Shown here piece by piece: positions 680 to 39,739 of a stretch of DNA of 46,502 bases. Under the pieces are notes generated by a model. The model did not search any database. It was not told where the DNA came from and saw only the letters and a program-made list of their open reading frames with translations. Both the position numbers and the translations under genes were made by a program. The stretch is from Actinomycetes bacterium (GTDB lineage Bacteria > Actinomycetota > Coriobacteriia > Anaerosomatales > Anaerosomataceae). Location of the stretch: positions 1 to 46,502 of the forward strand of contig JAJFTR010000030.1 in NCBI GenBank assembly GCA_021372825.1. Reading direction: 5' to 3'. Positions within the stretch are counted from its first letter, which is position 1. Each line of letters begins with the position of its first letter.

Positions 680-1924
680 ATGGCGCAAGAGGCGCACGGT
701 GCGCTGCACGACCTTCTCGCGGTCCGTGGCGTATCCCGTCGCGACTTCCTGAAGTACTGCGGCTCTGTCGCCGCAGCAATCGGGCTGTCGGAGACGATGG
801 CACCTCAGGTCGCAGCCGCTCTGGAAGGAGCTCCGAAGCTTCTCCCGGCGCTGTGGATCAACGGCGGTTCATGCACCGGCTGCACAGAGTCGATCGCGCA
901 GGTCGATTCGCCCGACGTCGCCACGATCGTCCTCGACTATCTGTCATTTGAGTACTTCGAGACGATCATGGCCGCTGCGGGCACGTGGGCCGAGGAGAAC
1001 ATCACCAAGCGGGTCGCCGAAGGTGGCTACATCGTCATCTACGAAGGTTCGGTCATGACGGGCCAGGACGGCAACACGCTCTTCGTGGGTGGTGGCCCGA
1101 ACAACGAGGGCGCCAAGAAGGGCATCGACATCCTCAAGGAGGTCGCATCCAACGCAGTGGCGGTCATCGCCGTCGGATCATGCGCGGTCGATGGCGGCTG
1201 GGTCATGGCGCATCCGAACCCCGCGAAGGCGACGGGTGTGGCGGCTTTCCTGCAGAAGGAGGGCATCACCACGCCAGTGGTGAGCATGCCGACCTGTCCG
1301 GTGAACCCAGAGTGGGTCGTCGCGATGGTCGTCCAGCTGCTTCTCGTCGCAGACCGCGACCCGGCCAAGTTCCTGGAACTCACGCAGTGGGTCAAGTACA
1401 CGTATCACGACGGCGTCACCGACCAGGACGTCACTCTCACCCTTCCGAAGGGCATCTACGGGCAGTCGATCCACGACAACTGCCCGCGTCGCGGCCACTT
1501 CGAGAACGGCGAGTTCGTGACCGAGCTCGGTAGCAAGGAAGAGGCCATGGGCTACTGCCTCTACAAGGTCGGCTGTAAGGGTCCGCAGACCTACACGCAG
1601 TGCCCAGTCACCCGTTGGAACCGCTCGGCAAGCTGGTGCGTCAACTCAGGCGCTCCGTGCATCGGTTGCGGCGGTCTCAATTGGGTCGACAACAACGCTC
1701 CGTTCTTGAAGAGGCTCTCTGACATCCAGTTCGACGGCTTCCTCGGCATGGGCAACACACAGCCCGGCCACATCGGCGCGGCAGTCGGCGGCGCGGTCGC
1801 CGTCGGCCTTGTCGCTCATGGCCTGGGAATGAAGGCCGCGGGCCGCATCGGAGACGGGCCTCCCATGGAGGAGATGAAGGCCTACGATCGCAAGCGGATG
1901 GCAAAGAAGGGAGGCGATAAGTAG
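680..1924 (+). CDS. hysB: [NiFeSe]-type hydrogenase small subunit, Tat-exported
   Basis: 414-aa electron-transfer subunit of a group 1 uptake hydrogenase, passing electrons from the Ni site through three Fe-S clusters. The start at 680 is chosen because AAGGAGGT (665-672) sits 7 bases upstream; an earlier in-frame ATG-proximal codon at 647 lacks this. The signal peptide carries a perfect Tat motif, RRDFLK (residues 20-25). By family alignment, proximal-cluster ligands are C65, C68, C168 and C206; distal ligands are H265, C268, C293 and C299; medial ligands are C308, C327 and C330, plus C320. In ordinary [NiFe] enzymes the position of C320 is Pro and the cluster is [3Fe-4S]; a Cys here is the [NiFeSe] feature and predicts [4Fe-4S]. 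The proximal motif CTGC lacks the extra cysteines of O2-tolerant enzymes. A weak hydrophobic stretch lies near residue 355. Stop overlaps the next start by one base. Confidence 0.95.
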   Translation: MAQEAHGALHDLLAVRGVSRRDFLKYCGSVAAAIGLSETMAPQVAAALEGAPKLLPALWINGGSCTGCTESIAQVDSPDVATIVLDYLSFEYFETIMAAAGTWAEENITKRVAEGGYIVIYEGSVMTGQDGNTLFVGGGPNNEGAKKGIDILKEVASNAVAVIAVGSCAVDGGWVMAHPNPAKATGVAAFLQKEGITTPVVSMPTCPVNPEWVVAMVVQLLLVADRDPAKFLELTQWVKYTYHDGVTDQDVTLTLPKGIYGQSIHDNCPRRGHFENGEFVTELGSKEEAMGYCLYKVGCKGPQTYTQCPVTRWNRSASWCVNSGAPCIGCGGLNWVDNNAPFLKRLSDIQFDGFLGMGNTQPGHIGAAVGGAVAVGLVAHGLGMKAAGRIGDGPPMEEMKAYDRKRMAKKGGDK

Positions 1925-3597
1925 TGGCTCGCACTGTTGTCGATCCGGTGACCCGGATCGAAGGTCACCTGCGTGTCGAGGTCGAAGTGACCAACGGCAA
2001 GGTGTCTGACGCCTGGGTCTCGGGCACACTGTGGCGCGGCATGGAGCTCGTCCTGCAGGACCGCAATCCTGAGGACGCGTTCTGGGTCTCGCAGCGCATC
2101 TGCGGCGTCTGTCCGATCTCGCACAGTCACGCGTCGGCCCAGTCCACGGAGAGCGCGCTCGGCATCACGATCCCGAACAACGCGCGCATCATCCGCAACT
2201 TGATCGAAGCTGCTCAGTTCTTGCACAGCCACATCCTGTGGTTCTACACGCTGGCCGCGCTGGACTATGTCAACCCGGTCAACGCGCTTTCGGCCAACAT
2301 CGCCGACACGTACGCACTCGCCCAGGCCGCAGGTACGCGAATCGCCGACTTCGGCGCCGTCGCTACCCGCCTCAAGGGCTTCGTGGAGAACGGCCAGCTG
2401 TCGATCTTCACCGGTCACGAAGGCTGGTTCGGTGTCGGCGCCGAGAAGCACCCGGGCTATGTCCTTCCGCCCGAGCTTGACCTGATCGCGACCGCCCACT
2501 ATCTGGAGGCCCTCGAGCTCCAGGCGGTCGCCGCGGAGATCATCGCGGTGATGAGCGGCAAGTTCCCGCACCACATGACGTCGATCCCTGGCGGCACGGC
2601 ATTCGTGCCCACCGAGCAGAAGCTCGATGACATCCTCTTCCGCTTCACGCGGGTCAAGGAATTCATCGATACCGCGCTCATCCCTGACACGCTCGCCATC
2701 GCCCCGTACATCCTGGGCGCGGCGTCGTTCGGCGGTGGCTGCGGCAACTTCTTGTCGTGGGGCGTGTTCGAAGCCGAGGACTTCGACCCCTACAAGCGGT
2801 ACCTGCCGAGGGGCTTCATCCAGACCTCCAAGGGTCTCACCGCCGAGAAAGTCGAGGCCACAGACGTCAACGAGTACGTCACCCACTCGTGGTACTCCTC
2901 ACCTTCCGGGCTCAACCCCGCCGAGGGTAAGACGGAGCCCGCATGGGAGCCGTACAGCACGGATGGCAAGTACTCGTGGGGCAAGGCTGCGCGTTGCAAG
3001 GACCTGCCCGCGGAGGTCGGCCCACTCTCACGGATGCTGGTCGGCTATGTGAACGGGGTCAAGCCCGTCAAGGACATCGTCGACTTCGCCTTGGGCAAGC
3101 TCTCCGCAGCCGCGGGCGCGACGCTCGAGCCGACCGTTCTCGTGTCCTTGCTCGGCCGTGTCGCCGCCCGTAACCTTGAAGCCGCCGTCGTGGCAGGCTG
3201 GGCGATCGAGTGGGTCAATGAGCTCATCGCGGCCATCAAGGGCGGCGACAGCTCGTACTTCGTCACGGAGCGTGCCGAGGCCGGCAAGGGCGTCGGCCTG
3301 TGGGAGGCGCCGCGTGGCTCGGTCGGTCACTGGATGACCGTCGAGAACGGTAGGATCGCCAACTACCAGGTAGTGGCCCCGACCACATGGGATATCTCGC
3401 CGCGCGACGAGAAGGGCGTCCCCGGCCCGATGGAGCAGGCTCTAATCGGTGCTCCCGTCGTAGATGCCACCAGGCCGCTCGAGGTAATGCAGGTCGCTCA
3501 CAGCTTCGATCCTTGAATCGGTTGTGCTGTCCACGTGGTGGACACCGTGACCGGCAAGGACGCGACCTTCAACACGTCGCCGATGGGGGTGATGTAG
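1924..3597 (+). CDS. hysA: [NiFeSe] hydrogenase large subunit with in-frame TGA read as selenocysteine
   Basis: Catalytic subunit carrying the Ni-Fe site, 557 residues if the TGA at 3514-3516 is decoded as selenocysteine (U531). The N-terminal nickel motif RICGVC is at 58-63 (C60, C63). The C-terminal motif normally reads DPCxxCxxH; here the codons give DP-TGA-IGC-AVH, so U531 replaces the first Cys and C534 and H537 follow in register. After H537 a 20-residue tail ends at TAG (3595-3597), as expected for a large subunit trimmed after His by its maturation protease. Taking TGA as a stop would delete both C-terminal Ni ligands from an otherwise intact protein in an intact operon. GTG start overlaps the small-subunit stop. 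A SECIS-like hairpin begins 11 bases after the TGA. A conventional caller will truncate this gene at 3516. The SelA/B/C/D machinery is not in the window. Confidence 0.92.
3528..3544 (+). promoter_or_regulatory. Bacterial SECIS-like hairpin after the TGA codon
   Basis: Perfect 7-bp stem TGTCCAC / GTGGACA (3528-3534, 3538-3544) with loop GTG. The stem starts 11 bases after the TGA and the loop 18 bases after it, with G as the first loop base. Known bacterial SECIS elements lie immediately 3' of UGA with a small apical loop containing an early G at about this distance, where SelB binds. The hairpin lies inside the coding sequence for residues 535-541. Confidence 0.75.
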
Positions 3598-4239
3598 ATG
3601 TCCACTCACGCCTATTACCGTGAGGCGCATCCGCTGATCTTCGTCATCACCCACTGGATCAACCTCGTGTGCATGGTGATGCTGGCGTTCTCGGGCTTCT
3701 ACATCCACTACCCGTTCTTCGACGGGTTCATGGGTGTGGCGCGAGGCATGCACTTCGTCGCGATGTACGTGGTCATCATCAACCTCACGTTCCGCATCAT
3801 CGCCGCCTTCTTCGTGAAGTCCGCGAACAAGATGGGGACGCGCGAGGTCGATCTGGACATCAAGAACTGGTTGCCCCAAGAAGAGAACAAGCATCAGTTC
3901 TGGGAGACGGTGAAGTACTACCTGTTCCTGCGTAAGGAAGGCGTTATCAGCGGCAAGTACGGGTCGCTCCAGAAGATCTCGTATCTCGCCACCATCCCCC
4001 TCACGTACCTGCAGGCCTACACGGGCTTCTGCATCTACGCGCCAGCGATGGACCTTGGCTTCTTCAAGGGCGGGCTCGAGCTGGTGGGCGGCCCCATGAA
4101 CATGCGGATCATCCACTACTTCATCATGTGGGTGTTCATCGTGTTCACGATGGTGCACGCCTATCTGGCCAACATCTACAACTTCGCCCCGAGCAAGATC
4201 ATCTTCCTTTGGAAGGAGACGGAGGCGAAAGGTCACTAG
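3598..4239 (+). CDS. hyaC: Hydrogenase cytochrome b subunit (HyaC-like membrane anchor)
   Basis: 213-aa integral membrane dihaem cytochrome b expected to accept electrons from the small subunit and reduce membrane quinone. Four hydrophobic helices are visible at about 12-34, 51-73, 128-148 and 168-192. Histidines suitable as haem ligands lie within or beside them (H19, H52, H173, H187). The ATG directly follows the large-subunit TAG, with a G-rich ribosome site (GGGGGTG) inside the large-subunit tail. Many described [NiFeSe] hydrogenases use soluble cytochrome c partners, so a co-encoded cytochrome b suggests direct coupling to the quinone pool. Family assignment is firm; the quinone type is inferred. 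Confidence 0.9.
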   Translation: MSTHAYYREAHPLIFVITHWINLVCMVMLAFSGFYIHYPFFDGFMGVARGMHFVAMYVVIINLTFRIIAAFFVKSANKMGTREVDLDIKNWLPQEENKHQFWETVKYYLFLRKEGVISGKYGSLQKISYLATIPLTYLQAYTGFCIYAPAMDLGFFKGGLELVGGPMNMRIIHYFIMWVFIVFTMVHAYLANIYNFAPSKIIFLWKETEAKGH

Positions 4240-4364: not shown

Positions 4365-4964
4365 GTGACCGAGGAACGGATACTGGTGCTCGGCGTAGGC
4401 AACGTTCTGCAACGCGACGAGGGTATCGGGCCTAGGATCGTCGAAGAGATCGAGCGTCACTACCAGCTGCCGCTCCACGTCCAGGTCGTCGACGCCGGCA
4501 CCATGGGACTCGGCATGCTCTACCTTTTGAGGGATGTCGACTACCTCTTGGTGGCGGATGCCGTACGCGGCACCGGGCATGCTCCTGGCACGGTACTGCG
4601 CATCTCGCCTGAAGCCTTCGCACCCAACCAGGTCATCCATTCGCTTCATGACATGCGCCTCGTCGACGTCCTCCAAGCAGCCCAGCTGATCGGCATAGAG
4701 CCCCAGACGGAGTGTATCGGCGTCGAGCTGGAGGATATCTCGGCGGGTGAGTTCAGTATCGGTCTTACCGAAACACTCGAACGATCGGTCCCCCGCGCCG
4801 TCGCAGCCGTTCTCATGCTTCTCGAGGAACGGGGGGTCGTGGCACAAGAGAGCGAGCCGGGCGATGATCTCGCGCGGGTCTTCCGCGACCAGGTCCGCGT
4901 CGCATGGGACGAGATGCGTGAGAGGCGTGAGCGCACGGGGAGTTCAGCGGATCACGACTTCTGA
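4365..4964 (+). CDS. hyaD: Hydrogenase maturation endopeptidase (HyaD/HysD family)
   Basis: 199-aa cytosolic nickel-dependent protease predicted to cleave the C-terminal tail of the large subunit after its last Ni-motif His. The N-terminus has the family signature GVGNVLQRDEGIG (10-22). E19, D65 and H95 match the three metal-recognition residues known from HybD. GTG start with AGGGAGAG about 5 bases upstream. The C-terminal third after about residue 150 is charged and longer than in many HybD relatives. It lies 125 bp after the cytochrome gene, beyond hairpins. Its last 13 bases overlap the convergent histidine kinase. Its natural substrate should be the selenocysteine-containing large subunit in this operon. 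Confidence 0.93.
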   Translation: MTEERILVLGVGNVLQRDEGIGPRIVEEIERHYQLPLHVQVVDAGTMGLGMLYLLRDVDYLLVADAVRGTGHAPGTVLRISPEAFAPNQVIHSLHDMRLVDVLQAAQLIGIEPQTECIGVELEDISAGEFSIGLTETLERSVPRAVAAVLMLLEERGVVAQESEPGDDLARVFRDQVRVAWDEMRERRERTGSSADHDF

Positions 4965-9687: not shown

Positions 9688-11178
9688 CTAGGAGCGGTCC
9701 TCTTCAAGGTCGATACCCCACTCGCCCAAGATCTTGGTGACGGCGCGTTCCCCGCTCTCGATACAGTTGGGGACACCCACCCCGCGGTACGCTCCTCCCG
9801 CAACACCGAGACCACGCACCTGGCCGACCTGGCGCTCGATCTCATCCACACGGTCTAGATGGCCGAGGGTGTACTGCGGCATCCCGCCATTCCATCTGAA
9901 CACCTCGGCGAATATCGGCTCCGCATCAGGCCGCATACCGAGAAGCTCCACGAGCTCGTGGTGCACTGTGTCGATGAGTTCCTCATCGCTGGCCTCAAGG
10001 AGGTGCTGATTGAGAGGCCCTCCGATGAAGCCACGCAGCAGGACCCTCCCTTCGGGTGCCTTGTCGGACCACTTGGAGGAGGAGAGCGTCACGGCAAGTA
10101 TCGGCCTTCTCTCCACGAGCGGCGCGAGGATGCCGAACCATCTCTGGTCGAACGGGCAGTCCTCGGCACGGAAGGCCATCGGCACGGTGGCCGATGAGGA
10201 ACAGGGGATGGTCGCGAGTAAGTCCGCGATACCGGTGTCGACGTCGCGCAGAAGCTTCTCGGCCGCCCACGCCTCCGTCGCCACGATGAGAGCGTCTCCC
10301 TCAAGGACCTCGCCGGTCTCAAGCGCGACCGACCACGTTCCGTCAGTCTTGGCTACACCAGTGACCGCTGCCCCGGTGCGGATGCGCTCCTGGCCGATCG
10401 CGTCTGCCATCGCGAGCGCGAGCTGCTGCATACCGCGATCGAAAGTGTTGAAGAAGGTCTTCGGCGCGTCGCCTGGCTTCGGAGGATACGTCTTCTTCAT
10501 CGCCTCGGCCTGCTTGCGCTGATGGAGCATCCCTCTCACCACGGAGCCGAACTGCTGCTCCATCTCCAGGAGGTTGGGGAATGTCGCTGCTAGCGACATC
10601 TGGGTGGGTTCGCTTGCGTGCACCCCTCCCACAAGCGGTTCGGCCACACGGTCCAGACATTCGCGTCCCATCCGGCGGACGACGAAGCTCTCGAGCGTCT
10701 CATCGTGGTCCTGTGCGGTCTCCCCCGGCGCCCACCGCTCCTTGCGCGGGAGCACGAGGTCGAGCCCCATCCGAAGCTTCCCGGGCCACGAGTACAGAGG
10801 CGTGGTCACCAGGGGCATGAGCTTCGTGGGCGCGAACATCATGATGCCATCCGGCATCTCGATCAAGCGATCACCTTTGACGATGAGCGTCTTCTTGTTC
10901 TCATCACGCGCGGGTCGCATCGCCTCAGTGATGCCGAGAAGTCTGGCCATGCGGGCGATCGCGGGCTTGCCGGACACGAAAGCGTCTGACCCCCCATCGA
11001 CGACGTACTCCCCTCCTTCGGGGTCGGGGATGATGTGGGTGGCGAGCTTACCACCGACTCGATCATCACGTTCCACCACGACGCACTCTACGTCGGCTCC
11101 CGCCTCCGCCGCCCGCTGCACTTTGAAAGCCGCACCGAGACCGGCTACCCCGGCGCCTATGATGATGACCCGCTTCAT
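9688..11178 (-). CDS. hemY: Protoporphyrinogen/coproporphyrinogen oxidase, copy 1
   Basis: 496-aa FAD enzyme oxidising a porphyrinogen to porphyrin. N-terminal Rossmann motif GAGVAGLGAA (about 8-17) and an ERDDRVGGKL FAD-binding stretch; C-terminal FAD region around AGGAYRGVGVPNCIESGE. In Gram-positive bacteria this family (HemY/CgoX) usually makes coproporphyrin III. Start at 11178 is chosen for AGGAAGG about 8 bases upstream and because the Rossmann strand starts at residue 2. It lies 41 bp downstream of a paralogue of almost equal length in the same operon, with long shared blocks (for example MPDGIMMFAPTKLMP). The two may differ in substrate or redox partner; this cannot be read from sequence. 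Confidence 0.92.
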   Translation of the reverse strand: MKRVIIIGAGVAGLGAAFKVQRAAEAGADVECVVVERDDRVGGKLATHIIPDPEGGEYVVDGGSDAFVSGKPAIARMARLLGITEAMRPARDENKKTLIVKGDRLIEMPDGIMMFAPTKLMPLVTTPLYSWPGKLRMGLDLVLPRKERWAPGETAQDHDETLESFVVRRMGRECLDRVAEPLVGGVHASEPTQMSLAATFPNLLEMEQQFGSVVRGMLHQRKQAEAMKKTYPPKPGDAPKTFFNTFDRGMQQLALAMADAIGQERIRTGAAVTGVAKTDGTWSVALETGEVLEGDALIVATEAWAAEKLLRDVDTGIADLLATIPCSSSATVPMAFRAEDCPFDQRWFGILAPLVERRPILAVTLSSSKWSDKAPEGRVLLRGFIGGPLNQHLLEASDEELIDTVHHELVELLGMRPDAEPIFAEVFRWNGGMPQYTLGHLDRVDEIERQVGQVRGLGVAGGAYRGVGVPNCIESGERAVTKILGEWGIDLEEDRS

Positions 11179-11219
11179 GCATGATCCTTCCTCTGGACCC
11201 CTCACACGCGTGCGCTCAC

Positions 11220-12728
11220 TCAGCGGACTGACCCGTCATCCGAAGCGGTGTCTGCGTAGTCGACACCAGCGTCCCGCAGCACTTTGGACGCTGCACGTTC
11301 GCCACTCTCCAACGCGTTAGGCACGCCTACACCACGGTAGGCATTACCAGCAAGGGCAAAACCTGATATCACAGCCTCGCGCGCCTCGATCTCATCGATG
11401 CGGTCGAGGTGGCCGAGGGTGTACTGAGGCATGCCACGATCCCACCTGAAGAGTCTCGCATACAACGGTTGCGCACTCCTGGGCATCCCGAGAAGCTCCA
11501 CAAGCTGTGTGCGAGCAAGTTCCACAAGCGCGTCGTCTGAGCGCTCGAGCACATGCTGGTCACGCGGACCTCCCAAGAATCCTCGCAAGAGCACTGTACC
11601 CTTCGGTGCACGGTCCGGCCATTTTGACGACATGAGCGACACACCCGTCAGCGGCCGATGCTCCACGAGTGGCGAAAGGATGCCGTGCCAGTGACGATCG
11701 AAGGGGCAGTCTGCATCCGCGAATGCCATGACCACCGTCGCAGAAGAGGAGCACGGGATCGACGCGACCAGTTCGCCGATGCGTGCATCTACGGCGGCGG
11801 CCAGAGGCGCCGCGGCCCACGCCTCGGTGGCCACGATCACCGCATCGGCTTCATGCACCTCGCCCGAAGAAAGCGTGACCTTCCAGGCATCCTTTGCCTT
11901 CTCCAGCTTCTGCGCTGTCACCCCCGTCACTATGTGCTCGCGTCCGGCGGCATCGGCCATGCGGTCGGTCAAGTACTGAAGCCCTGGTCTGAACGACGAG
12001 AAGAACGTCCTCTTCGGCTGGCCGGGCTTCGGGGGGTGCTTCTTCCTCATTTCCTCGACCTTCTTGCGCTGGTCGAGGAAGCCGAGGATCAAGGAGCGGT
12101 GCTTCTGCTCCATCTCAAGAAGCATCGGATAGGTCGCCGCAAGTGACATGTCCGTTGGATCAGACCCGTTGACTCCTCCCACGAGTGGCTCAGCCAATCT
12201 GTCGAGACACTCACGACCCATACGCCGCACAACGAATGCCTCAAGACTCTCGTCGTGCTCCTGAGGAGTATCTCCGGGCGCCCATCTCTCCTTGCGCGGG
12301 AGCATGAGGTCGAGCGCCATCCGGAACTTCCCCGGCCACGAGTACAGCGGCGTCGTCACCATGGGCATGAGCTTCGTGGGCGCGAACATCATGATCCCAT
12401 CGGGCATCTGTATGAGCCGACCGTCCTTGACGATGAACGTCTTGCTTGTCTCCTCGTTCGTGCCCGTCTCATCCTGGAGGATTCCCAAGGACCGTGCGAC
12501 TCGATGCACCGCCTGCTTGTCGGTGAGAAAAGAGTCAGATCCTCCATCGGCGATGTACGTGCCGCCGTTTTCGTCACTCCAGCGGTCCGTCCAAAGCTTG
12601 CCACCGAGCCGTTCGTCCTTCTCGATAAGAGTGAACGCCACGTCATGCCCCGCTTCGGAGGCTCGACGCAACCGTAACGCGGCTCCCAAACCTGCGACTC
12701 CACCTCCGACGACCACCACATGCGTCAT
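11220..12728 (-). CDS. hemY: Protoporphyrinogen/coproporphyrinogen oxidase, copy 2
   Basis: 502-aa paralogue of the downstream hemY, upstream in transcription order. It has the Rossmann GGGVAGLGAALRL motif at about 8-20, the EKDERLGGKL stretch and the C-terminal FAD region AGNAYRGVGVPNALESGE. Start at 12728 is set by GAGGAG 7 bases before ATG and by the Rossmann fold starting at residue 3; the longer open frame to 13061 overlaps hemH antisense to nothing recognisable. The copies share most motifs but differ throughout by many substitutions, so this is an old tandem duplication and not an assembly repeat. Confidence 0.92.
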   Translation of the reverse strand: MTHVVVVGGGVAGLGAALRLRRASEAGHDVAFTLIEKDERLGGKLWTDRWSDENGGTYIADGGSDSFLTDKQAVHRVARSLGILQDETGTNEETSKTFIVKDGRLIQMPDGIMMFAPTKLMPMVTTPLYSWPGKFRMALDLMLPRKERWAPGDTPQEHDESLEAFVVRRMGRECLDRLAEPLVGGVNGSDPTDMSLAATYPMLLEMEQKHRSLILGFLDQRKKVEEMRKKHPPKPGQPKRTFFSSFRPGLQYLTDRMADAAGREHIVTGVTAQKLEKAKDAWKVTLSSGEVHEADAVIVATEAWAAAPLAAAVDARIGELVASIPCSSSATVVMAFADADCPFDRHWHGILSPLVEHRPLTGVSLMSSKWPDRAPKGTVLLRGFLGGPRDQHVLERSDDALVELARTQLVELLGMPRSAQPLYARLFRWDRGMPQYTLGHLDRIDEIEAREAVISGFALAGNAYRGVGVPNALESGERAASKVLRDAGVDYADTASDDGSVR

Positions 12729-12798
12729 GACAGCACTCCTCTGCTCGCCGGCCACATCCGTCACGAGCGGGCGCCTGCCGGAGCGTCCACGCCTTGTC

Positions 12799-13767
12799 CT
12801 AATCCTCGCCGATCGCCGCACGTACCGCCCATGCCACGTCACGCGCAAGCTCGGGCGCGGCATTGGGGATACCGGCCCGCTGAAAGGCCAGTCCGGCGCG
12901 TGCCGCGCGCTGGGACGCCACGATATCCAAATCGTACAGGGTCTCCAGGTGATCGGTCGCGAACCCCAGCGGCACAACGACCACGCCTGAAGCACCCGTT
13001 GCCGCAGCCGCGTCGATGACCTCCCCGACACTCGGACCCAGCCACTGTCCCCCGCGCACACCCTGCGATTGGTAGGCGATCAGCCAAGGATGCGCGCCAT
13101 GTGTCGACCCATACGCCTCGACCCCACCGATCACACGAGACTCACGACCAGCCGGCAATCCCGAAGCGGACGCCACCACGTCTGCGACACGCCTCAACCC
13201 ATCCACGTACGACCTGTCGGCATCGGCCTCGGTGAGCGGCAGACTGTGCGCCGAGAAGACCAGCAGCGCCCCAGGCGCGGCACACTCGAGCGCCCTGCGC
13301 GCTGAGGCGGAGAAAAGATCGACAAAGGCCGGTAGTTGCGAGAGTGGCGGCGCCTCGTAGACCGTCATCCCCGGATAAGCAGCAGCGGCCGCCGCGAACG
13401 CGGAGCGGTACTCGCGATGTGTGACCTGGGTTTCGAACGGAGAGAGAGTCACCATCACCACTTGCTGCACCCCGGATTCAGCCAACCGTCGAACGGCCTC
13501 GGCAATATCGGGATCGCTGTATCGCATGCCCACCTCGACAAACGCGTCGACACCGCCAGCGGCAAGAGATCGTGCGACTTCCTTCCCCAGCTGCCGTGCG
13601 ATATCCAGAAGCGGCGAGCGGCCGCCGATGGCCTCGTAGCGCCTGCACACCTCCTCGAGTACGGCAGGGGTTGGCGTCTGACCGATCAGTTCGCGCATGA
13701 ACGGCCCGACAGCCTCGAGAGAGTCGGGTGCGCCGAATCCGACGATCAGGACACCTACACGTCGCAT
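12799..13767 (-). CDS. hemH: Ferrochelatase (HemH/CpfC)
   Basis: 322-aa chelatase inserting Fe2+ into proto- or coproporphyrin. N-terminal VGVLIVGFGAPDS (4-16). The catalytic-His motif reads FSAHSLPLTEAD (near 160) and the conserved acidic helix reads PLGFATDHLETLYDLD (near 270-285). It starts directly after the hemE stop (no gap) and is followed 70 bp later by hemY copy 2. Neighbours hemE and two hemY genes make a late-haem operon. Presence of HemY-type oxidase plus this gene is compatible with the Gram-positive coproporphyrin route; the last enzyme of that route (ChdC) is not in the window. Confidence 0.95.
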   Translation of the reverse strand: MRRVGVLIVGFGAPDSLEAVGPFMRELIGQTPTPAVLEEVCRRYEAIGGRSPLLDIARQLGKEVARSLAAGGVDAFVEVGMRYSDPDIAEAVRRLAESGVQQVVMVTLSPFETQVTHREYRSAFAAAAAAYPGMTVYEAPPLSQLPAFVDLFSASARRALECAAPGALLVFSAHSLPLTEADADRSYVDGLRRVADVVASASGLPAGRESRVIGGVEAYGSTHGAHPWLIAYQSQGVRGGQWLGPSVGEVIDAAAATGASGVVVVPLGFATDHLETLYDLDIVASQRAARAGLAFQRAGIPNAAPELARDVAWAVRAAIGED

Positions 13768-14838
13768 CTAGCGGCCCGCACGTATCCGCTCGGAATGCTC
13801 GTGCACGAACCTGATCATCGTCTGCGCCTTAGCGGGGTCACTCGTCTTGTGGATGCCATGGCCGAGGTTGAAGATGTGTCCCGGTCTCGTCCCCACAGCC
13901 TCCAGTATGGCCACCACCATCCGCTCGAGCTCCTCGTCAGGAGCGAACAGCGCCGCCGGGTCGAGGTTCCCCTGTATCGCAAACCGCGCATCGACCTGCT
14001 CGACAACGTGCGTCATGTCCATGCGCCAGTCCACGCCGATGACATCGCCACCCGCTTCTTGGGCGAGGTCGAGCATCGAGGTGGCGCCGTTCGGGAAGTG
14101 GATGACTGGGACACCCCCTGGTACGGCCTTCTCGCCGTACTCCACCAGCGCATCGATCACCCGCTTGGTGTATGGAAGCACCGAACGTTCGTAATCTCGC
14201 GGAGCCACATAGCCGACCCAGCTGTCGAACAACTGTATCGCTTGCGCGCCCGCATCGATCTGAGCAGTCAGGTACGCGATCACGGTGTCGCTGATCTTTG
14301 TCATCAGCTCGTCCCAGACCGCTGGTTCACCCCACATGAGAGCCTTGGTGTGCTCGTAGTCGCGAGTCCCGTGACCCTCCACCATGTAACTCGCTAGCGT
14401 GAAAGGTGCTCCACCGAATCCGATAAGAGGGACTTTGTGCTCGAGCTCGCCGCGAAGTATGCGCAGCGCCTCCATCACGTATCCCGTGTCTTCAAGAGGG
14501 TCGGAAACGCGCAACCGGTGCACGTCTGTGGCCGTTCTCACGGGGCTATGGATGATCGGCCCCTCGCCCTTCGCGAACTCAAGGTCGAGACCCATGCCAG
14601 GCACGACCACAAGGATGTCCGAGAACAGGATCGCCGCATCCACGCCGATGAGGTCGACCGGCTGCATGGTGACCTCTACGGCGAGCTCCGGAGTGCGACA
14701 CATCTCCAAGAAGCCATGCTTCGCCCGGATGGCGCGGTACTCTGGCATGTATCGGCCAGCCTGACGCATCATCCACACCGGCGTGCGTTCGGTCGCCTGG
14801 CGACGGCAGGCGCGCAGGAAGAGATCGTTGAAGGGCAT
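13768..14838 (-). CDS. hemE: Uroporphyrinogen III decarboxylase
   Basis: 356-aa cytosolic enzyme converting uroporphyrinogen III to coproporphyrinogen III. The N-terminal signature PVWMMRQAGRYMPEYR (near 17-32) and later motifs GFGGAPFTLASYMVEG and NLGHGI fit the family at full length. Start at 14838 follows GGAAG; the longer frame from 14871 adds 11 residues with no family match. First gene of the haem operon hemE-hemH-hemY-hemY. A bidirectional-looking hairpin at 14908-14942 separates it from the upstream acetyl-CoA synthetase gene, so transcription of the haem genes probably begins in the 70 bp between; a TAGACT (-10-like) sits at 14873-14878 on the coding strand without an obvious -35. 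Confidence 0.96.
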   Translation of the reverse strand: MPFNDLFLRACRRQATERTPVWMMRQAGRYMPEYRAIRAKHGFLEMCRTPELAVEVTMQPVDLIGVDAAILFSDILVVVPGMGLDLEFAKGEGPIIHSPVRTATDVHRLRVSDPLEDTGYVMEALRILRGELEHKVPLIGFGGAPFTLASYMVEGHGTRDYEHTKALMWGEPAVWDELMTKISDTVIAYLTAQIDAGAQAIQLFDSWVGYVAPRDYERSVLPYTKRVIDALVEYGEKAVPGGVPVIHFPNGATSMLDLAQEAGGDVIGVDWRMDMTHVVEQVDARFAIQGNLDPAALFAPDEELERMVVAILEAVGTRPGHIFNLGHGIHKTSDPAKAQTMIRFVHEHSERIRAGR

Positions 14839-14907
14839 CCAGACTTCCTTTCGGTGCGGAGGGACGCGCATCAGTCTACCACTCTCTTGCCGACTCGGCC
14901 GGACACG

Positions 14908-14962: not shown

Positions 14963-16951
14963 TCAGGTTCTAGGCGCGGTATCCAGTATCTTCTTCACGA
15001 TGCTGGGATCAGCGAGTGTTGAGATGTCCCCGAACGCTTCCATGTCGCGCTCCCCTGCCGCGATCTTTCGCAGGATACGACGCATGATCTTACCAGACCG
15101 GGTCTTGGGCAGCTCTGGCACGAAGTGGATGAAGTCAGGTTTGGCGATCGGCCCGATCTCTTCACGGACGTGGCCAGTGAGGATCTTGTTGAGTTGCTCT
15201 GAGGGCTCCTGCCCCTCTCGCAGGATCACGTAGGCGTAGATCCCCTCACCCTTCACGTCGTGTGGATAGCCCACGACCGCCGCCTCCGCGACAGCAGGAT
15301 GGCTCACGAGCGCACTCTCGATCTCGGCGGTACCCATCCGATGGCCCGAGACGTTGATGACGTCGTCCACCCTGCCGAGCATCCAGTAGTAACCGTCCTC
15401 ATCAAGACGTGCGCCGTCTCCGGTGAAGTACTTGCCGGGGAACGCCGAGAAGTAGACCTCCTTCATGCGCTTGTTCTCAGGATCACCCCAGGTGCCTCGG
15501 AGCATACCCGGCCACGGTTTCGTGATGCACAGGCGGCCGCCGCTTCCTACCGGCGTCGGCGTCCCATCTTCGTTCACGACCTCCGGGACGATGCCGAAGA
15601 AGGGACGAGTCGCAGAACCCGGCTTCATGGGAGTACAGCCAGGCAGATTGGTGATCATGTGGCCGCCTGTCTCCGTCTGCCAGTAGGTATCGACGATCGG
15701 GATCTCCTCGCGCCCGATGTTCTTGAAGTACCACATCCATGCCTCAGGGTTGATCGGTTCGCCCACCGTGCCCAGGACACGCAGCGTCGACAGGTCGTAC
15801 TTAGCAGGCCATTCTTCTCCGAGCTTCATAAGAGACCTGATCGACGTCGGAGCAGTGTAGAACTGGTTCACCCCATGCTTCTCGACGACTTCCCAGAACC
15901 GGCCAGCGTCGGGATAGGTCGGGATGCCTTCGAACATGACGGACGTTGCGCCGACGCAGAGCGGTCCATAGACGATGTAGCTGTGGCCGGTGACCCATCC
16001 GATGTCCGCGGTACACCAGAAGACGTCCTCGTCGTGGTAGTCGAACGTGTAGCGGAAGGTGGTCGCAGCGTAGAGCAAGTACCCACCGGACGTGTGGAGC
16101 ACGCCCTTCGGCTTGCCCGTCGAACCGGAGGTGTACAGGATGAAGAGCGGGTCCTCAGCATCGACCCACTCGATGTCACAATGGCGGCCGATGTCATTGG
16201 CACGGACCTCTTCGTGATACCAACGATCGCGGCCCGGCTCCATGTCGACCTGTGTGTGCGCGCGAGAGACCACGATGACCGTCTCGACCGTCGGACACTC
16301 CAGAAGGGCGGTGTCCGCCTCGGCCTTGAGCGGCGTCACACGCCCGCCGCGCAGACCCTCGTCCGCCGTCACGAGAAGCTTTGCGCCGCAATCCTGGATA
16401 CGATCGCGCAGCGCAGCCGCAGAGAACCCGCCGAAGACAACGGAGTGGATCGCACCGATACGAGCACATGCGAGCATGGCGATCGGGAGTTCCGGGATCA
16501 TGGGCAGGTAGATCGCCACTCGATCGCCCTTGCGGATGCCGTACTTCTTCAGGACGTTGGCGAAACGGCACACCTTGTAGTAGAGGGATTGGTACGTGTA
16601 CATCTTCGTACGGCCCTCGTCCGACTCCCAGATGAGAGCAGCCTTGTTGCGGCGCCACCCCTGCAAGTGACGGTCGATGCAGTTGTACGTGACGTTGAGT
16701 TTCCCGCCTTTGAACCACTCGACCCGCGGCACACTGAAGTCGTAGTCCAAGACGGTATCCCACTTCTTCTGCCAGTGGAGCATCTGCTCGGCCATGTCCG
16801 ACCAGAAACCTTCAGGATCTTCGACCGAACGGTTGTAGAGTGCCTCGTACTCCTCCATGGTCTGGATGTGAGCTCGCTGAGACACCCATGCCGGCGGCTT
16901 CACCACCCGCAACTCCGTCGACAGCGTCTCGATAGCCTGTGATTCCGTCAT
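14963..16951 (-). CDS. acsA: Acetyl-CoA synthetase (AMP-forming)
   Basis: 662-aa adenylate-forming enzyme making acetyl-CoA from acetate, ATP and CoA. Adenylation core motifs: [20 protein letters not shown] near 274-293, a [12 protein letters not shown] substrate-pocket motif near 424-435, and the hinge/C-terminal domain with the catalytic Lys in [11 protein letters not shown], the site known to be acetylated in this family. Length and domain order match bacterial Acs closely. Start at 16951 has GGAGG 8 bases upstream. Monocistronic, with a long upstream region (16952-17470) and a terminator at 14908-14942. Confidence 0.96.
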
Positions 16952-17191
16952 GCTCTCGCCTCCTTCTCGTGTCTCCCTGTCACCCCAGCGCAGCGCGGTA
17001 CTGGAATGAGATATGAACCGATGACGGGGAGGACTCCCCGCGCCAATCGTACCGGCGTCATACGCGCAGAGGCGAAGAGCTCAGCCGTACGGGTGCATTT
17101 TGTCGGTCAACGGCAAAAGTGTCGCCACTGACCGAATGGGCACCGGAAAAGCACACGCATCTTGCAATCGTCGCGAGGCAGGGGTAACGTG

Positions 17192-17344
17192 ATGTTCACA
17201 GATTCCCTTCCCTCTAGGAAGATGGACCGTCCGGAGAATCCGCCGGTCCGACCGGGTTGGCCCATCGACGACCGGCATCGCGATGATTGCAGCAAGGGCT
17301 GCAAGGCCAACCGAGACTCAGGGGTAAACAGGGAAGGAATGTGA
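17192..17344 (+). CDS. Possible 50-aa protein, unknown
   Basis: ATG at 17192 follows AGGGG with 7 bases spacing, and the frame stops at 17344, inside the 5' arm of a strong terminator hairpin. The 50-residue product is hydrophilic, rich in Arg, Asp and Pro, with two Cys (CSKGC) and no membrane segment. Ribosome site plus immediate terminator is suggestive, but the region also folds well as RNA, so the frame may be chance. No homologue is recognised. Confidence 0.3.
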   Translation: MFTDSLPSRKMDRPENPPVRPGWPIDDRHRDDCSKGCKANRDSGVNREGM

Positions 17345-17374
17345 GGAGCCTCGGCCCGAAGGTCGGGGCTCTTC
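17343..17374. terminator. Strong hairpin between degV and the unexplained intergenic element
   Basis: Stem of 11-14 bp, GAGCCTCGGCC / GGTCGGGGCTC (17346-17356, 17361-17371), with G-U pairs and a CGAA loop. It could end a plus-strand transcript covering 17104-17344, or end degV transcription on the minus strand. Confidence 0.6.
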
Positions 17375-17470
17375 CACGTCATGGCCACCTCTCAACGGGA
17401 ACGCTGACTGCTGTCGCGGAAGGGTGGGACCATACTCGGAGTACCCGGAGCCACCGGCCACCAAGGCACC

Positions 17471-18313
17471 CTATTCCACAGGCAGAAGCGCGACCCCCCA
17501 GCCAGTGCCGGTGTGGGTGCTCAGTACGGAGCCGGCTTCCACGTTGTAGAGGTCGCGGATCTGATAGGTCCCACGCAGGCGAGCTTCCAGCCACGCGGCC
17601 TTATCGGGAGACAGCACATGCATGACTGCGAAAGAGCCCTTGCGACGGTCTCCCATGTACTGTGCGATCCACTGCAGGGTGTGCTCCAGTGCCGCCTTGG
17701 CACCTCGCGTGCGTGCGACTGGCTCGAGAGTCCCTGTCTCGTTGACCGTCAGAGTGATCTTGAGGTTCAGGATGCCACCGACGAAGGCGGCGACCCGGCC
17801 GATCCTCCCGCCTCTTGCCAGGTTCTCGAGGCTGTCAAGACCGACGATCATCCTCACCCGCTCACGTGCCGCCTCGATCCTCTCCAAGACCTCGGCTGCA
17901 GATGCGCCTTGTGCCGCGCTTCTGGCTGCTTCGATGACCTGAAGTGCTTCTCCCCATGCGAGATTCTTCGAATCGAAGACCATGACTCTGTCCCCGAAGT
18001 GCGCAGCCGCCTTGTGTGCCGACTCGAGTGTTCCCGACAGTGGCGCTGAGATATGGATCGACACCACTTCGCTCGCCCGATCCAGGACCCTCTGGTATGT
18101 CTCGATGAAAGCACCTACCGGCGGCTGGGACGTAGTCGGAAGAGCAGGGGCGTCTTTCATGCGGTCGAAGAACTCCCGCTGCGTGAGCGTGCCATCCTCG
18201 AACGTGTCATCTCCGATCGTCACACTCAACGGTACGACCTCGATCCCCAACTCGCGTGCGACCTCCGGTGTGATGTCCGACGTGCTATCCGTGACGATAC
18301 CGACACGCTGCAT
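17471..18313 (-). CDS. DegV family fatty-acid-binding protein
   Basis: 280-aa protein of the DegV/FakB family, which binds a fatty acid for phosphorylation by a FakA kinase. N-terminal VTDSTSDITPE (7-17) and ISAPLSGTLESA (near 88-99) are the family's lipid-head-group motifs; the C-terminal half has the EGRIG-like RGGRIGRVAAF segment. Length is usual. Start at 18313 has AGAGG about 6 bases upstream, next to the HIT gene stop eight bases earlier, so it is last in the rnd-xseA-xseB-HIT-degV run. FakA is not in the window. The ligand is unknown. Confidence 0.9.
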   Translation of the reverse strand: MQRVGIVTDSTSDITPEVARELGIEVVPLSVTIGDDTFEDGTLTQREFFDRMKDAPALPTTSQPPVGAFIETYQRVLDRASEVVSIHISAPLSGTLESAHKAAAHFGDRVMVFDSKNLAWGEALQVIEAARSAAQGASAAEVLERIEAARERVRMIVGLDSLENLARGGRIGRVAAFVGGILNLKITLTVNETGTLEPVARTRGAKAALEHTLQWIAQYMGDRRKGSFAVMHVLSPDKAAWLEARLRGTYQIRDLYNVEAGSVLSTHTGTGWGVALLPVE

Positions 18314-25850: not shown

Positions 25851-26807
25851 TCACCAGCCGCCTCGAAGCCGGTCTGCCAGAGCGCCCGTGAATACGACTA
25901 TCGCGACGATCCCATTCACTGTAAAGAAGGCCTCGTTCACGCGCGACAGGTCCTCTGGGGAGACGATGCTGTGCTCATACCACATCAGAGCCGCGGCTGC
26001 GCCGACGGCGATGTACCACGGCCAGCCGGCGCCGACGAGGAACCCGCCGAGCACGAGCAGTGCCACGGTCGATACATGCTTCAACCGCGCCTGGGTGAGC
26101 GCCCGCGTCAAGCCGAAGTCGACTGGCATCGAGTGAAGCCCGTCCCGCACATCACACGCTATGTCTTGGGTCGCATAGATGATATCGAATCCGACGGTCC
26201 ACAGCATGACGGCGCACCCGAAGACCCATGGGGCCGCGTCGGTGGCCGGACCTCCCACCGCAAGCCATCCGCCGATCGGCGCGAGGCCTAGGCACAACCC
26301 CAGCCAGTAATGGCAGAAGGGCGTCACCCGTTTGAGGTACGGATACACGATGAAGGCGACCAGCGGGATCGGCCAAAGCCACCGCGTCACGGGATGCAAC
26401 TGCCAGACACCGAAGAGGTACGCGGCTAGCATGATCGCCGAGAAGATCCACAGCTCCCACGCCGTGACCCGGCCCGCGGGGATCGCGCGACCAGCGGTGC
26501 GAGGATTCCTCGCATCGATCTCTCTGTCGACGGCCCGGTTGATCACGAACGCGAATGAACGAGCACCGACCATGACGACGGTGATCCACACAAGCGCCGG
26601 CCACGACGGCCAACCGGGGCCGTCGAGCGTATGCATGACCCACCACGGATGGCCCTGCTCGGCCGAACCACGGGCGGGCGCCGTCGTCCAAGGAGCGACC
26701 TGCGCGCCGTAGAGCGCACCTATGTACGCGTAAGGTAAGGCGAATATCGAGTGCTCGAACTTGACGAGCTCGAGCAGCACCTTGATCTTCTGGATGATCT
26801 TGCTCAC
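25851..26807 (-). CDS. ubiA: UbiA-family aromatic prenyltransferase (MqnP-like candidate)
   Basis: 318-aa membrane enzyme attaching a polyprenyl chain to an aromatic acid. First Asp-rich motif NRAVDREIDARNPRTAGR (near 85-102), second YATQDIACDVRDG (near 204-216), both Mg-diphosphate sites. About eight to nine hydrophobic helices are evident. GTG at 26807 overlaps the ubiD stop; an in-frame GTG at 26825 is an alternative. With UbiD and UbiX adjacent, and no 4-hydroxybenzoate or ring-hydroxylase genes nearby, the futalosine-type menaquinone route (MqnP with MqnL/MqnM) is the likeliest pathway; this is an inference from context. Confidence 0.92.
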   Translation of the reverse strand: MSKIIQKIKVLLELVKFEHSIFALPYAYIGALYGAQVAPWTTAPARGSAEQGHPWWVMHTLDGPGWPSWPALVWITVVMVGARSFAFVINRAVDREIDARNPRTAGRAIPAGRVTAWELWIFSAIMLAAYLFGVWQLHPVTRWLWPIPLVAFIVYPYLKRVTPFCHYWLGLCLGLAPIGGWLAVGGPATDAAPWVFGCAVMLWTVGFDIIYATQDIACDVRDGLHSMPVDFGLTRALTQARLKHVSTVALLVLGGFLVGAGWPWYIAVGAAAALMWYEHSIVSPEDLSRVNEAFFTVNGIVAIVVFTGALADRLRGGW

Positions 26808-28288
26808 AGGCCCAGGCCCTCCCACAACTCATCGACCCGCGCTTTGACTTCAGGGGACATCTCCAGAGCATCCGGCCACTCACGTGCGTACCCCTCATTG
26901 CGCAGGGGACGGGTCGCGTCGATCCCCAGCTTGAAGCCGAAGCTCTCGAAGTCGCTGCTGTGATCAAGACGGTCAAGCGGACCCTTACTCACGAGTATGT
27001 CACGAGAGGGATCCACGTTGTTGAAGCAACGCCATGCCACCTGGGAGTAGTCGTGACAGTCCACATCTTCGTCCACGACGATCACGAACTTGGTGAACAT
27101 CATCTGCCCCATCGACCATGCGAAGTTCATGACGCGGAATGCCTGACCCGCAAACTCCTTCTTGATCTGAAAGATCGCGCAGTTGTGGAACACACCCTCC
27201 AGAGGAAGGTCATAGTCGACCACCTCGGGCATCATCGCCCGGACAACGGGAAGGAACAGCCTCTCGGTGGCCTTGGCCATGTAGCAGTCTTCCATCGGCG
27301 GACGTCCTACGATCGTCGCGGCGTAGATGGGGTCGCGTCGTGTGGTGATGACGTCCACGTGGAAGACGGGGAACTCATCCGCTAGTGAGTAGTAGCCAGT
27401 GTGGTCGCCAAAAGGACCCTCTCGTCTCTTCTCGTCTGGATCACACCAGCCCTCAAGGACGATCTCGGCGTGTGCAGGCACGAGCAAGTCGTTGGTGAGA
27501 CACTTCACGACCTCGACGCTCTCAGCCCGCAACACGCCACTGAACAAGTACTCATCGATCATCGGGGGCACAGGCGCCGTCGCGGAGAAGGTTGTTGCCG
27601 GATCAGCTCCGATCGCCACACTCACCGGTACCCGTGCAGCTCCGGCCTCCTTCCAGGATCTCAGGTTCTTGGCACCATCATGATGCTCATGTATGTGCAA
27701 TCCGGTCGTCTTCCCGTCGAACACTTGCAGACGATACATACCGATGTTGAGCTTTGCCGATGGGTCGTTTGTTACCACAAGGGGGAGCGTGACGAACGGG
27801 CCTGCGTCGCCCGGCCACGTCGTGAGGACCGGCAACCTGCCCAGGTCGACATCGTCACCTCGCCATACGACCTCTTGCACAGGCGCCTTCTTCACTCGCT
27901 TCGGCCGCGCTGAGGCAAGATCGGCGAGACTTCTCGCGGCACCGATCTTGTCCCACACACCCGTGGGCGCGTCCAGTGGGATGCTCTTCATGAGCTGGTT
28001 CGCCTTGGCATCAAGATCGCGCCATGTTCCCGTTCTGGCATCCACTCCCAGCGCCCACGCCATGCGGTCGTACCCGCCCATCAGATTGATCGCGACCGGC
28101 ATCTCATAGTGCCGGCCAGTCGCGCGGTCCACTGCGTTCTCGAAGAGCAACGCGGGGCCATGCTGCTTGCTCACGCGATCAGTGATCTCCCCGATCTCTA
28201 GATGCGGGTCGACCTCAGCGCTGATGCGTTGAAGCTGTCCCTTGGACTCAAGCAAGGCCATGAACTCGCGGATGTCCCTGAATGCCAT
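26804..28288 (-). CDS. ubiD: UbiD-family prenyl-FMN decarboxylase (MqnL-like candidate)
   Basis: 494-aa decarboxylase using prenylated FMN and Mn/K. Begins FRDIREFMALLESKGQL; central NIGMYRLQVFDGKTTGLHIHEHHDGAKNLR (near 182-212, split here) binds cofactor; EGPFGDHTGYYS (near 291-302) and the Glu-rich region carry catalytic acids. Length is typical. Overlaps ubiA by 4 bases and follows the HAD gene by 12 bp. In the menaquinone-type setting it would decarboxylate the prenylated naphthoate; in an alternative, 4-hydroxybenzoate-like acids. Confidence 0.94.
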   Translation of the reverse strand: MAFRDIREFMALLESKGQLQRISAEVDPHLEIGEITDRVSKQHGPALLFENAVDRATGRHYEMPVAINLMGGYDRMAWALGVDARTGTWRDLDAKANQLMKSIPLDAPTGVWDKIGAARSLADLASARPKRVKKAPVQEVVWRGDDVDLGRLPVLTTWPGDAGPFVTLPLVVTNDPSAKLNIGMYRLQVFDGKTTGLHIHEHHDGAKNLRSWKEAGAARVPVSVAIGADPATTFSATAPVPPMIDEYLFSGVLRAESVEVVKCLTNDLLVPAHAEIVLEGWCDPDEKRREGPFGDHTGYYSLADEFPVFHVDVITTRRDPIYAATIVGRPPMEDCYMAKATERLFLPVVRAMMPEVVDYDLPLEGVFHNCAIFQIKKEFAGQAFRVMNFAWSMGQMMFTKFVIVVDEDVDCHDYSQVAWRCFNNVDPSRDILVSKGPLDRLDHSSDFESFGFKLGIDATRPLRNEGYAREWPDALEMSPEVKARVDELWEGLGL

Positions 28289-35367: not shown

Positions 35368-36717
35368 TCACAGACCGTATCGTGACATCCTTGCTTCCAG
35401 CGTCTTGGCAGTGAGTCCGAGCAACTTCGCTGCCTTGGGGATACTCCCGCCGGCTCGCTCGAGCGCCTGCCGGATCAAGTCGAGCTCGACCTCTTCTAGG
35501 TCGAGTCCTCCTTCAGGCAGCACCACCTTCCTGTCACTCGCGGCTGACAGAGCCACCCCTGCCCTGACCTCGGCAGGTAGGTCATCGACGTCGACTTCAT
35601 CGCCCCGCGAGAGGATGATGATGCGCTCGACGGTGTTCTCGAGTTCGCGCACGTTCCCCGGCCACTGGTACTCCATGAGCATCCGCATGGCCTCGGGAGT
35701 GAAGTGCTTGTTCCCTGCCTTGTACTTCTCCAGGAAGTGAGCCACCAGAAGCGGGATGTCGCTCTTGCGCTGTCGAAGCGGCGGAAGAGTGACCGGAACC
35801 ACGTTCAGCCGATAGTACAGGTCCTCGCGGAAAGTGCCATCGACTATCAGTTGCTGCAGGTCCCGGTTCGTGGCGGCGATGACACGAACGTCTATCTCGA
35901 TACTCCGCGTGCCTCCCAGCCGTTCGAACACTCTCTCCTGAAGAACCCTCAGGAGCTTGACCTGCACTGCAGGAGAGATGTCTCCGATCTCGTCTAAGAA
36001 GATGGTGCCCCCGTTCGCCATCTCGAACCGCCCAGGCTTGGCCTGCATCGCTCCCGTGAAGGCGCCCTTCTCGTATCCGAAGAGCTCGCTTTCAAGCAAC
36101 GTCTCGGGCAGCGCCCCTGCGCTTACCGAGACGAAGGGCTTGCTCGCTCGGGGTGAGAGTGAGTGCAGAGCGCGTGCCACCAGTTCCTTGCCGGTGCCCG
36201 ACTCCCCATAGATCATCACGGTCGCGTTCGTGGGAGCGACCTTGTGCACGGTATCGAGCACTGCGAGCATGGCCGGGTCAGCGGCGACGAGCCCCTCGAC
36301 GTCATAGTTCTCGTCGAGTTCCTCTCGCAGCCGTTCGACCTCCACCGCGAGCTCGCTCATGCGAAGAACCTTGTCGATGCTCAACTTGAGTTCTTCCAGG
36401 TCGAAAGGTTTTGTGAGGTACTCGTCGGCTCCCGCCCTCATCGCTTCCACGGCGCTGGCGACGTTGCCGTGTGCGGTGAGCATGATGATCGGGAAGGTCA
36501 TCCCTTTGCTGCGCACCCGGCGAAGGACTTCCATCCCATCCGGAGCAGGCATCCTGTGATCAAGGATCATCACGTCTGGCGGCTGCTCCGAGACCAGGGC
36601 GAGTGCCTCTTTGCCGTCGGCCGCTTCGGCGATCTCGTACCCCTCCGCCTCGAGCGCCTGGCCGAGTACCCATCGCATGTTCTTCTCGTCATCGGCGATA
36701 AGGACACGTCGTGTCAT
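35368..36717 (-). CDS. Sigma-54-dependent response regulator (NtrC/ZraR type)
   Basis: 449-aa activator: receiver 1-120 (D9/D10 pocket, phospho-acceptor D53 in ILDHRMP), AAA+ domain about 145-375 with Walker A GESGTGKE (near 174), sigma-54 contact loop GAFTGA (near 218-223) and an arginine-finger region, and a C-terminal Fis-type helix-turn-helix ending GLTAKTLEARMSRYGL. Hallmarks are intact. ATGA overlap with the upstream kinase gene, and the kinase in turn overlaps rpoN, so sigma factor, sensor and activator are translated from one message. Targets are unknown; no -24/-12 promoter was identified by eye in this window. Confidence 0.95.
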   Translation of the reverse strand: MTRRVLIADDEKNMRWVLGQALEAEGYEIAEAADGKEALALVSEQPPDVMILDHRMPAPDGMEVLRRVRSKGMTFPIIMLTAHGNVASAVEAMRAGADEYLTKPFDLEELKLSIDKVLRMSELAVEVERLREELDENYDVEGLVAADPAMLAVLDTVHKVAPTNATVMIYGESGTGKELVARALHSLSPRASKPFVSVSAGALPETLLESELFGYEKGAFTGAMQAKPGRFEMANGGTIFLDEIGDISPAVQVKLLRVLQERVFERLGGTRSIEIDVRVIAATNRDLQQLIVDGTFREDLYYRLNVVPVTLPPLRQRKSDIPLLVAHFLEKYKAGNKHFTPEAMRMLMEYQWPGNVRELENTVERIIILSRGDEVDVDDLPAEVRAGVALSAASDRKVVLPEGGLDLEEVELDLIRQALERAGGSIPKAAKLLGLTAKTLEARMSRYGL

Positions 36718-39628: not shown

Positions 39629-39739
39629 TGTACCCTCCGACGCGGCGCCCACGCGGGCGCGCGCTATAGCAAACCTCGTACCATGATACCATCTGTGGCG
39701 CTCAGATGGCCGACGTCCGCGAGAACGTCGGGCACGCTT

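Follow-up and report, generated by a model that had tools for sequence, protein, structure and literature searches.

Evidence for a selenocysteine-containing group 1i uptake hydrogenase in Anaerosomatales and related Coriobacteriia

The 46,502-nucleotide stretch of DNA analysed here (the window; contig JAJFTR010000030.1 of an Anaerosomataceae genome) very probably carries the genes of an intact respiratory uptake hydrogenase that is attached to the membrane and has a selenoprotein as its large subunit. This reading is drawn at the sequence level from the reading frame, the nickel-ligand motif, the conservation and covariation of a hairpin, the sel gene cluster and the operon. The genes form a compact operon on the + strand, in which the small subunit, the large subunit and a cytochrome b are followed, after a gap, by a maturation protease. 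The small subunit (680..1924, 414 aa) carries the Tat signal SRRDFLKYCG and is of the three-FeS-cluster type (TIGR00391, 268.8 bits; Tat signal by TIGR01409). The large subunit (1924..3597, 557 aa when the TGA is taken as Sec), identified by TIGR/profile search, PDB alignment and reading of the frame, starts at a GTG sharing one base with the stop codon of the small subunit and runs to TAG 3595-3597. The ATG of a b-type cytochrome membrane subunit follows directly (3598..4239, +; TIGR02125, 106.6 bits for a cut-off of 121.5), and a HyaD/HybD-type hydrogenase maturation endopeptidase lies at 4365..4964 (+; TIGR00072, 114.7 bits for a cut-off of 47.45). Both the RxCGxC and DP(C/U)xxCxxH motifs of the large subunit and the accompanying genes (Tat small subunit, cytochrome b, endopeptidase) are those of a group 1 membrane-bound respiratory [NiFe] hydrogenase. 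Elsewhere in the window, two tandem protoporphyrinogen oxidase genes (9688-11205 and 11220-13061) stand beside hemH and hemE (12799-13767, 13768-14871), and Sigma-54 (rpoN), which is uncommon in actinobacteria, is encoded with an AtoS/AtoC-like two-component pair at 35368-39652. MqnP-like and SCO4490-type menaquinone genes are found at 25851-28288; quinones were undetected in cultured Anaerosomataceae (PMC9686372).

Under translation table 11, the large-subunit ORF (1924-3516) terminates at TGA 3514-3516, ahead of the active-site ligands, and stop-based annotation would hide the enzyme, as an earlier sequence-only reading had pointed out. With TGA translated as U, the frame extends to the TAG and the C-terminus reads DPUIGCAVH followed by VVDTVTGKDATFNTSPMGVM. 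The distal Cys, the His and the C-terminal tail described in that reading are indeed intact: the tail after His537 consists of 20 codons and the stop (3535..3597, +), and its length and GVM end are conserved in relatives. We expect the maturation protease to cut off this tail, the cleavage site being placed by analogy with the family. The TGA is the codon of the first residue (Sec531) of the C-terminal UxxC nickel-ligand motif. In alignments, position 531 falls on the first C of DPC(I/L)(A/G)C(A/G)VH in the PDB [NiFe] hydrogenases, which bears out the proposed replacement of the first Cys of DPCxxCxxH, and the suggested comparison with Desulfovibrio HysA gave an identical position for the Sec of the D. 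vulgaris enzyme. An in-frame UGA opposite the Cys of homologues is what is looked for in a bacterial selenoprotein. The AlphaFold model of the large subunit (mean pLDDT 83.6) has the [NiFe] hydrogenase of D. vulgaris Miyazaki as its best PDB fold match (TM 0.87).

A class-wide search retrieved large-subunit homologues in 165 of 298 genomes, and TGA occupies the Sec531 codon in 71 Coriobacteriia genomes (69 with DPU..C..H and 2 with DPU..C..Q). The homologues of these 71 genomes have exactly one in-frame stop each, always TGA, always at the same codon and never TAA or TAG, so the TGA of the window is beyond chance. The gut Eggerthellaceae and Coriobacteriaceae have Cys at this site. EMTCatB1, a close relative with a one-scaffold assembly that falls in the window's family, which suggests the order Anaerosomatales, and that NCBI places under Coriobacteriaceae, also has TGA there, in a gene whose protein is 87% identical to that of the window. 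The two genes differ at 203 third, 60 first and 45 second codon positions, and 3' of the Sec codon at 7 third, 2 first and 3 second positions; since the differences are mostly at third positions, also after the TGA, the tail is under coding constraint. Judged by these genomes, the TGA hydrogenase is the usual form in the window's order, beyond one genome. In the two DPU..C..Q loci (L074 and L075), the Sec site reads DPU.GCGVQ, with Gln replacing His at the expected cleavage point. Both Sec and Cys group 1i copies occur in three genomes (L031/L079 in G043, L026/L080 in G028, L055/L084 in G123), as would be expected for a selenium-responsive isoform switch.

A candidate bacterial SECIS, composed of a lower stem and an apical hairpin, lies just after the TGA (3518..3554, +). 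Its apical hairpin pairs TGTCCA (3528-3533) with TGGACA (3539-3544) around CGTGG, giving an upper stem of 6-7 bp and a loop, CGUGG or GUG, at a distance of 17-18 nt from the UGA. The bSECIS model of PMC13188914 has an apical loop of 3-9 nt, an upper stem of 4-16 bp, a G among the first two loop bases and a loop 16-37 nt from the UGA, and the window hairpin agrees with it in loop size, stem length, loop G and spacing. An Rfam gathering scan of the window returned three tRNAs only and no SECIS. The hairpin starts 11-14 nt 3' of the TGA and has at least 5 stem pairs in all 69 DPU..C..H loci, most Sec loci other than the window having GGTTCA-CGTG(A/T)T-TGAACC, against at most 2 pairs in 16 of 18 Cys loci; the other two Cys loci also attain 5 pairs. 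L230 (DPUMGCAIH, without the common hairpin) and L234 (DPC, with TGA elsewhere) are omitted from the hairpin counts. In L074 and L075, which were left out of the covariation analysis, the hairpin is a near copy, with one apical pair disrupted in L075. Pairing is kept through two-sided changes at stem pairs 3 (U-A, C-G or G-C), 6 (G-C, C-G or U-A) and 7, a covariation count only partly corrected for relatedness; on the protein tree, each of these three variable pairs requires 4 changes. Among the 6-nt-loop loci, in-register pairing reaches 97% of cells, and a shift of 1-3 bases brings it to 55% at most. For the window's Sec locus, none of 200 synonymous recodings folds as stably (z -2.9), and the mean folding z is -1.76 for Sec loci vs -0.34 for Cys loci. 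Conserved codons alone would keep part of the hairpin.

The family of the enzyme was assigned with a tree of 82 large subunits, in which one PDB sequence stands for HysA. The window large subunit falls in a clade (100% SH-aLRT) with Eggerthellaceae and Coriobacteriaceae enzymes, and within this Coriobacteriia clade a Sec half is sister to a Cys half. The Sec half holds one Cys row (L094), from a 62% complete genome (G038) in which no selA was found. By tree placement, the window enzyme is a member of the Coriobacteriia type (HydDB group 1i). Sequence comparison showed that the small-subunit motif SWCVNSGAPCIGC bears an extra Cys, where D. gigas-type enzymes have Pro; this Cys is common to Sec and Cys group 1i enzymes and is thus not tied to selenium. 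There is only a very slight chance that the window enzyme is an ordinary Desulfovibrio-type HysA [NiFeSe] family member gained by transfer. Such an origin would fit the shared Sec position and the significant HysA match, but the PDB sequence hits that score highest are [NiFe] enzymes with Cys (442.9 bits vs 324.5 for HysA), the sequence and fold searches alike point to group 1, the score against the HysA-type (group 1a) profile NF045518 is 414.6 bits for a cut-off of 780, and the tree groups the window enzyme with Cys group 1i. Forcing all Sec rows including HysA into one clade (log-likelihood lowered by 159.6, p-AU 1.8e-59) was strongly rejected, and HysA membership with it; HysA sits on a long branch, which makes its own exact place less certain. 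The window enzyme is therefore [NiFeSe] by its predicted ligand and group 1i by lineage: the hidden [NiFeSe] hydrogenase of the sequence-only reading is supported, with the refinement that the name holds for the predicted active-site ligand and that the lineage is other than that of HysA. The "high activity and resilience" which that reading names cannot be taken over from HysA.

Published group 1i enzymes (HydDB, PMC5037454; Anaerosoma tenue and Parvivirga hydrogeniphila, PMC9686372) share the gene set and the class of the window enzyme and form its sister clade, but as published they are Cys [NiFe] enzymes, in contrast to the predicted Sec and SECIS-like hairpin of the window (the isolates were compared by description). 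The periplasmic [NiFeSe] HysAB of D. vulgaris and Desulfomicrobium baculatum (PDB 5jsu, 1cc1) have Sec at the identical nickel-ligand position, whereas the window large subunit lies in another clade and has a b-type cytochrome gene directly downstream. Methanogen [NiFeSe] enzymes (F420-reducing and F420-non-reducing, groups 3a/3c) have a UxxC with Sec as nickel ligand, as predicted for the window enzyme, but belong to group 3 and come from archaea, in which the SECIS is found in the 3' UTR instead of behind the UGA (PMC1088965). In addition, a second Actinomycetota clade (L137 from Thermoleophilia, L200 and L217-L228), about 41-50% identical to the window large subunit, reads DPU.AC(A/S)VH and has almost the window's hairpin, GGTTCACGTGATTGAACC. 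HysA-like loci (L229, L231-L233, L235 and L236; NP.N.VRVVRSFDPU) from Actinomycetota families f30, f56 and f75 have a similar hairpin. One possible but rather doubtful scenario is that Sec is old, perhaps ancestral, in respiratory hydrogenases of anaerobic Actinomycetota, given at least three lineages (group 1i Sec, L200/L217-L228/L137 and HysA-like L229-L236) whose SECIS hairpins are almost alike; gut Coriobacteriia would then have derived Cys forms, and G028, G043 and G123 may switch copies with selenium supply.

The window's genome (G000, 99.5% complete) encodes the machinery for Sec decoding. All the genes that the earlier reading had proposed to look for, selA, selB, selD and tRNASec, are present, giving the selA, selB, selC and selD set of a bacterial selenoprotein system. 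They form a selD-selA-selB-tRNASec(UCA) cluster within 5 kb of contig C3: selD (12594-13511, itself interrupted by an in-frame TGA, in SGUAAKWGPG), selA (about 14.1-15.5 kb), selB (15510-17381; 388.7 bits) and tRNASec with anticodon UCA (17476-17568; 73.4 bits). In a Tat-type FdnG-like formate dehydrogenase (L242, contig C88, 5500-10200), a TGA (C88:8771; ARIUHSSTVAGLGRTFGRG) falls on the canonical Sec site. The hairpin loop of this formate dehydrogenase, GGTCT, differs from that of the hydrogenase hairpin and resembles the E. coli fdhF loop. Given the SelD and formate dehydrogenase TGA sites beside that of the hydrogenase, Sec decoding probably serves at least three proteins in this genome.

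Across the 71 Sec-site genomes, selB was found in at least 55, selA in 5 more and tRNASec in 2 more, and at least 62 have selA, selB or tRNASec; the selA and tRNASec searches cut the genomes without machinery from 16 to 9. No selA, selB or true tRNASec was found in nine of the 71, which are MAGs 70-98% complete (G045, G049, G073, G105, G111, G115, G133, G139 and G145). The tRNASec matches of 47-50 bits in G049 and G045 proved to be tRNA-Ser with ARAGORN, and similar-scoring matches in other genomes were counted as tRNA-Ser by score. Since selDABC is one cluster in G000, a single missing locus or contig would account for the absence in the nine MAGs. Some of them may have lost Sec decoding, and the absence in G045, G049 and G073 is a real loose end.

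The nine MAGs and the table-11 reading would both suit a TGA that is a genuine stop, leaving a pseudogene or a product cut off at 530 aa that lacks the terminal Ni ligands. We regard this as very improbable, as 71 genomes hold TGA and never TAA or TAG at a codon that is Cys in relatives, the 20-codon tail and the hairpin are retained in relatives, and the window's genome, like at least 62 of the 71, has the machinery; the pseudogene reading was rejected on the class-wide TGA conservation and the hairpin. It is similarly hard to credit that a reassignment or readthrough of UGA puts in another residue (e.g. Trp or Cys) without selenium. Cys can functionally substitute for Sec in relatives, but tRNASec(UCA), SelA, SelB and SelD are encoded in the genome together with two further canonical Sec sites, and the remaining ORFs of the window are normal under table 11. 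An assembly error, with TGC or TGT as the true codon, is a negligible prospect and was rejected: the window is a single-assembly observation, but independent assemblies of relatives, at about 50-87% protein identity, have TGA and neither TGC nor TGT at the codon of 3514-3516, and the SECIS-like hairpin goes with TGA and not with Cys codons.

In the selenoprotein reading, the hairpin just 3' of the UGA would recruit SelB with Sec-tRNASec during translation of the large subunit, and by this recruitment the UGA would be read as selenocysteine. Sec531 together with Cys534, Cys60 and Cys63 would, by position, form the nickel ligand set. The protease would cleave after His537, the folded dimer would be exported via Tat, and electrons from H2 would pass through the FeS chain to the cytochrome b, the catalytic direction and the electron acceptor being likewise predicted.

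[NiFeSe] hydrogenases are valued for H2 production and O2 recovery. In HydDB, [NiFeSe] variants are confined to groups 1a, 3a and 3c, and group 1i is listed as putative, with its role undetermined (PMC5037454); according to a 2026 review, [NiFeSe] hydrogenases occur in sulfate reducers and methanogens and nowhere else (PMC13188914). The group 1i enzyme of the first OPB41/Anaerosomatales isolates was called [NiFe] (PMC9686372) and that of EMTCatB1 a NiFe hydrogenase (PMC7943316), with selenium unmentioned in both cases. EMTCatB1 dominates an electromethanogenic biocathode, where "NiFe hydrogenase" and formate dehydrogenase are in the top 10% of transcripts (PMC7943316); we infer that the transcribed hydrogenase locus tags are those of the TGA operon. 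The openly searchable literature does not credit anaerobic actinobacteria with a Sec hydrogenase, and a prior mention may exist. In that literature, [NiFeSe] enzymes are limited to the sulfate reducers and the methanogens.

To conclude, our results support the notion that, in a widespread order of anaerobic actinobacteria, hydrogen uptake would usually be the task of a Sec enzyme. If this is true, hydrogen metabolism in the Sec-site organisms of the Coriobacteriia would depend on selenium, stop-based annotation would truncate their hydrogenase ahead of the active-site ligands, and the sister Sec and Cys enzymes would offer a natural test of the role of selenium.
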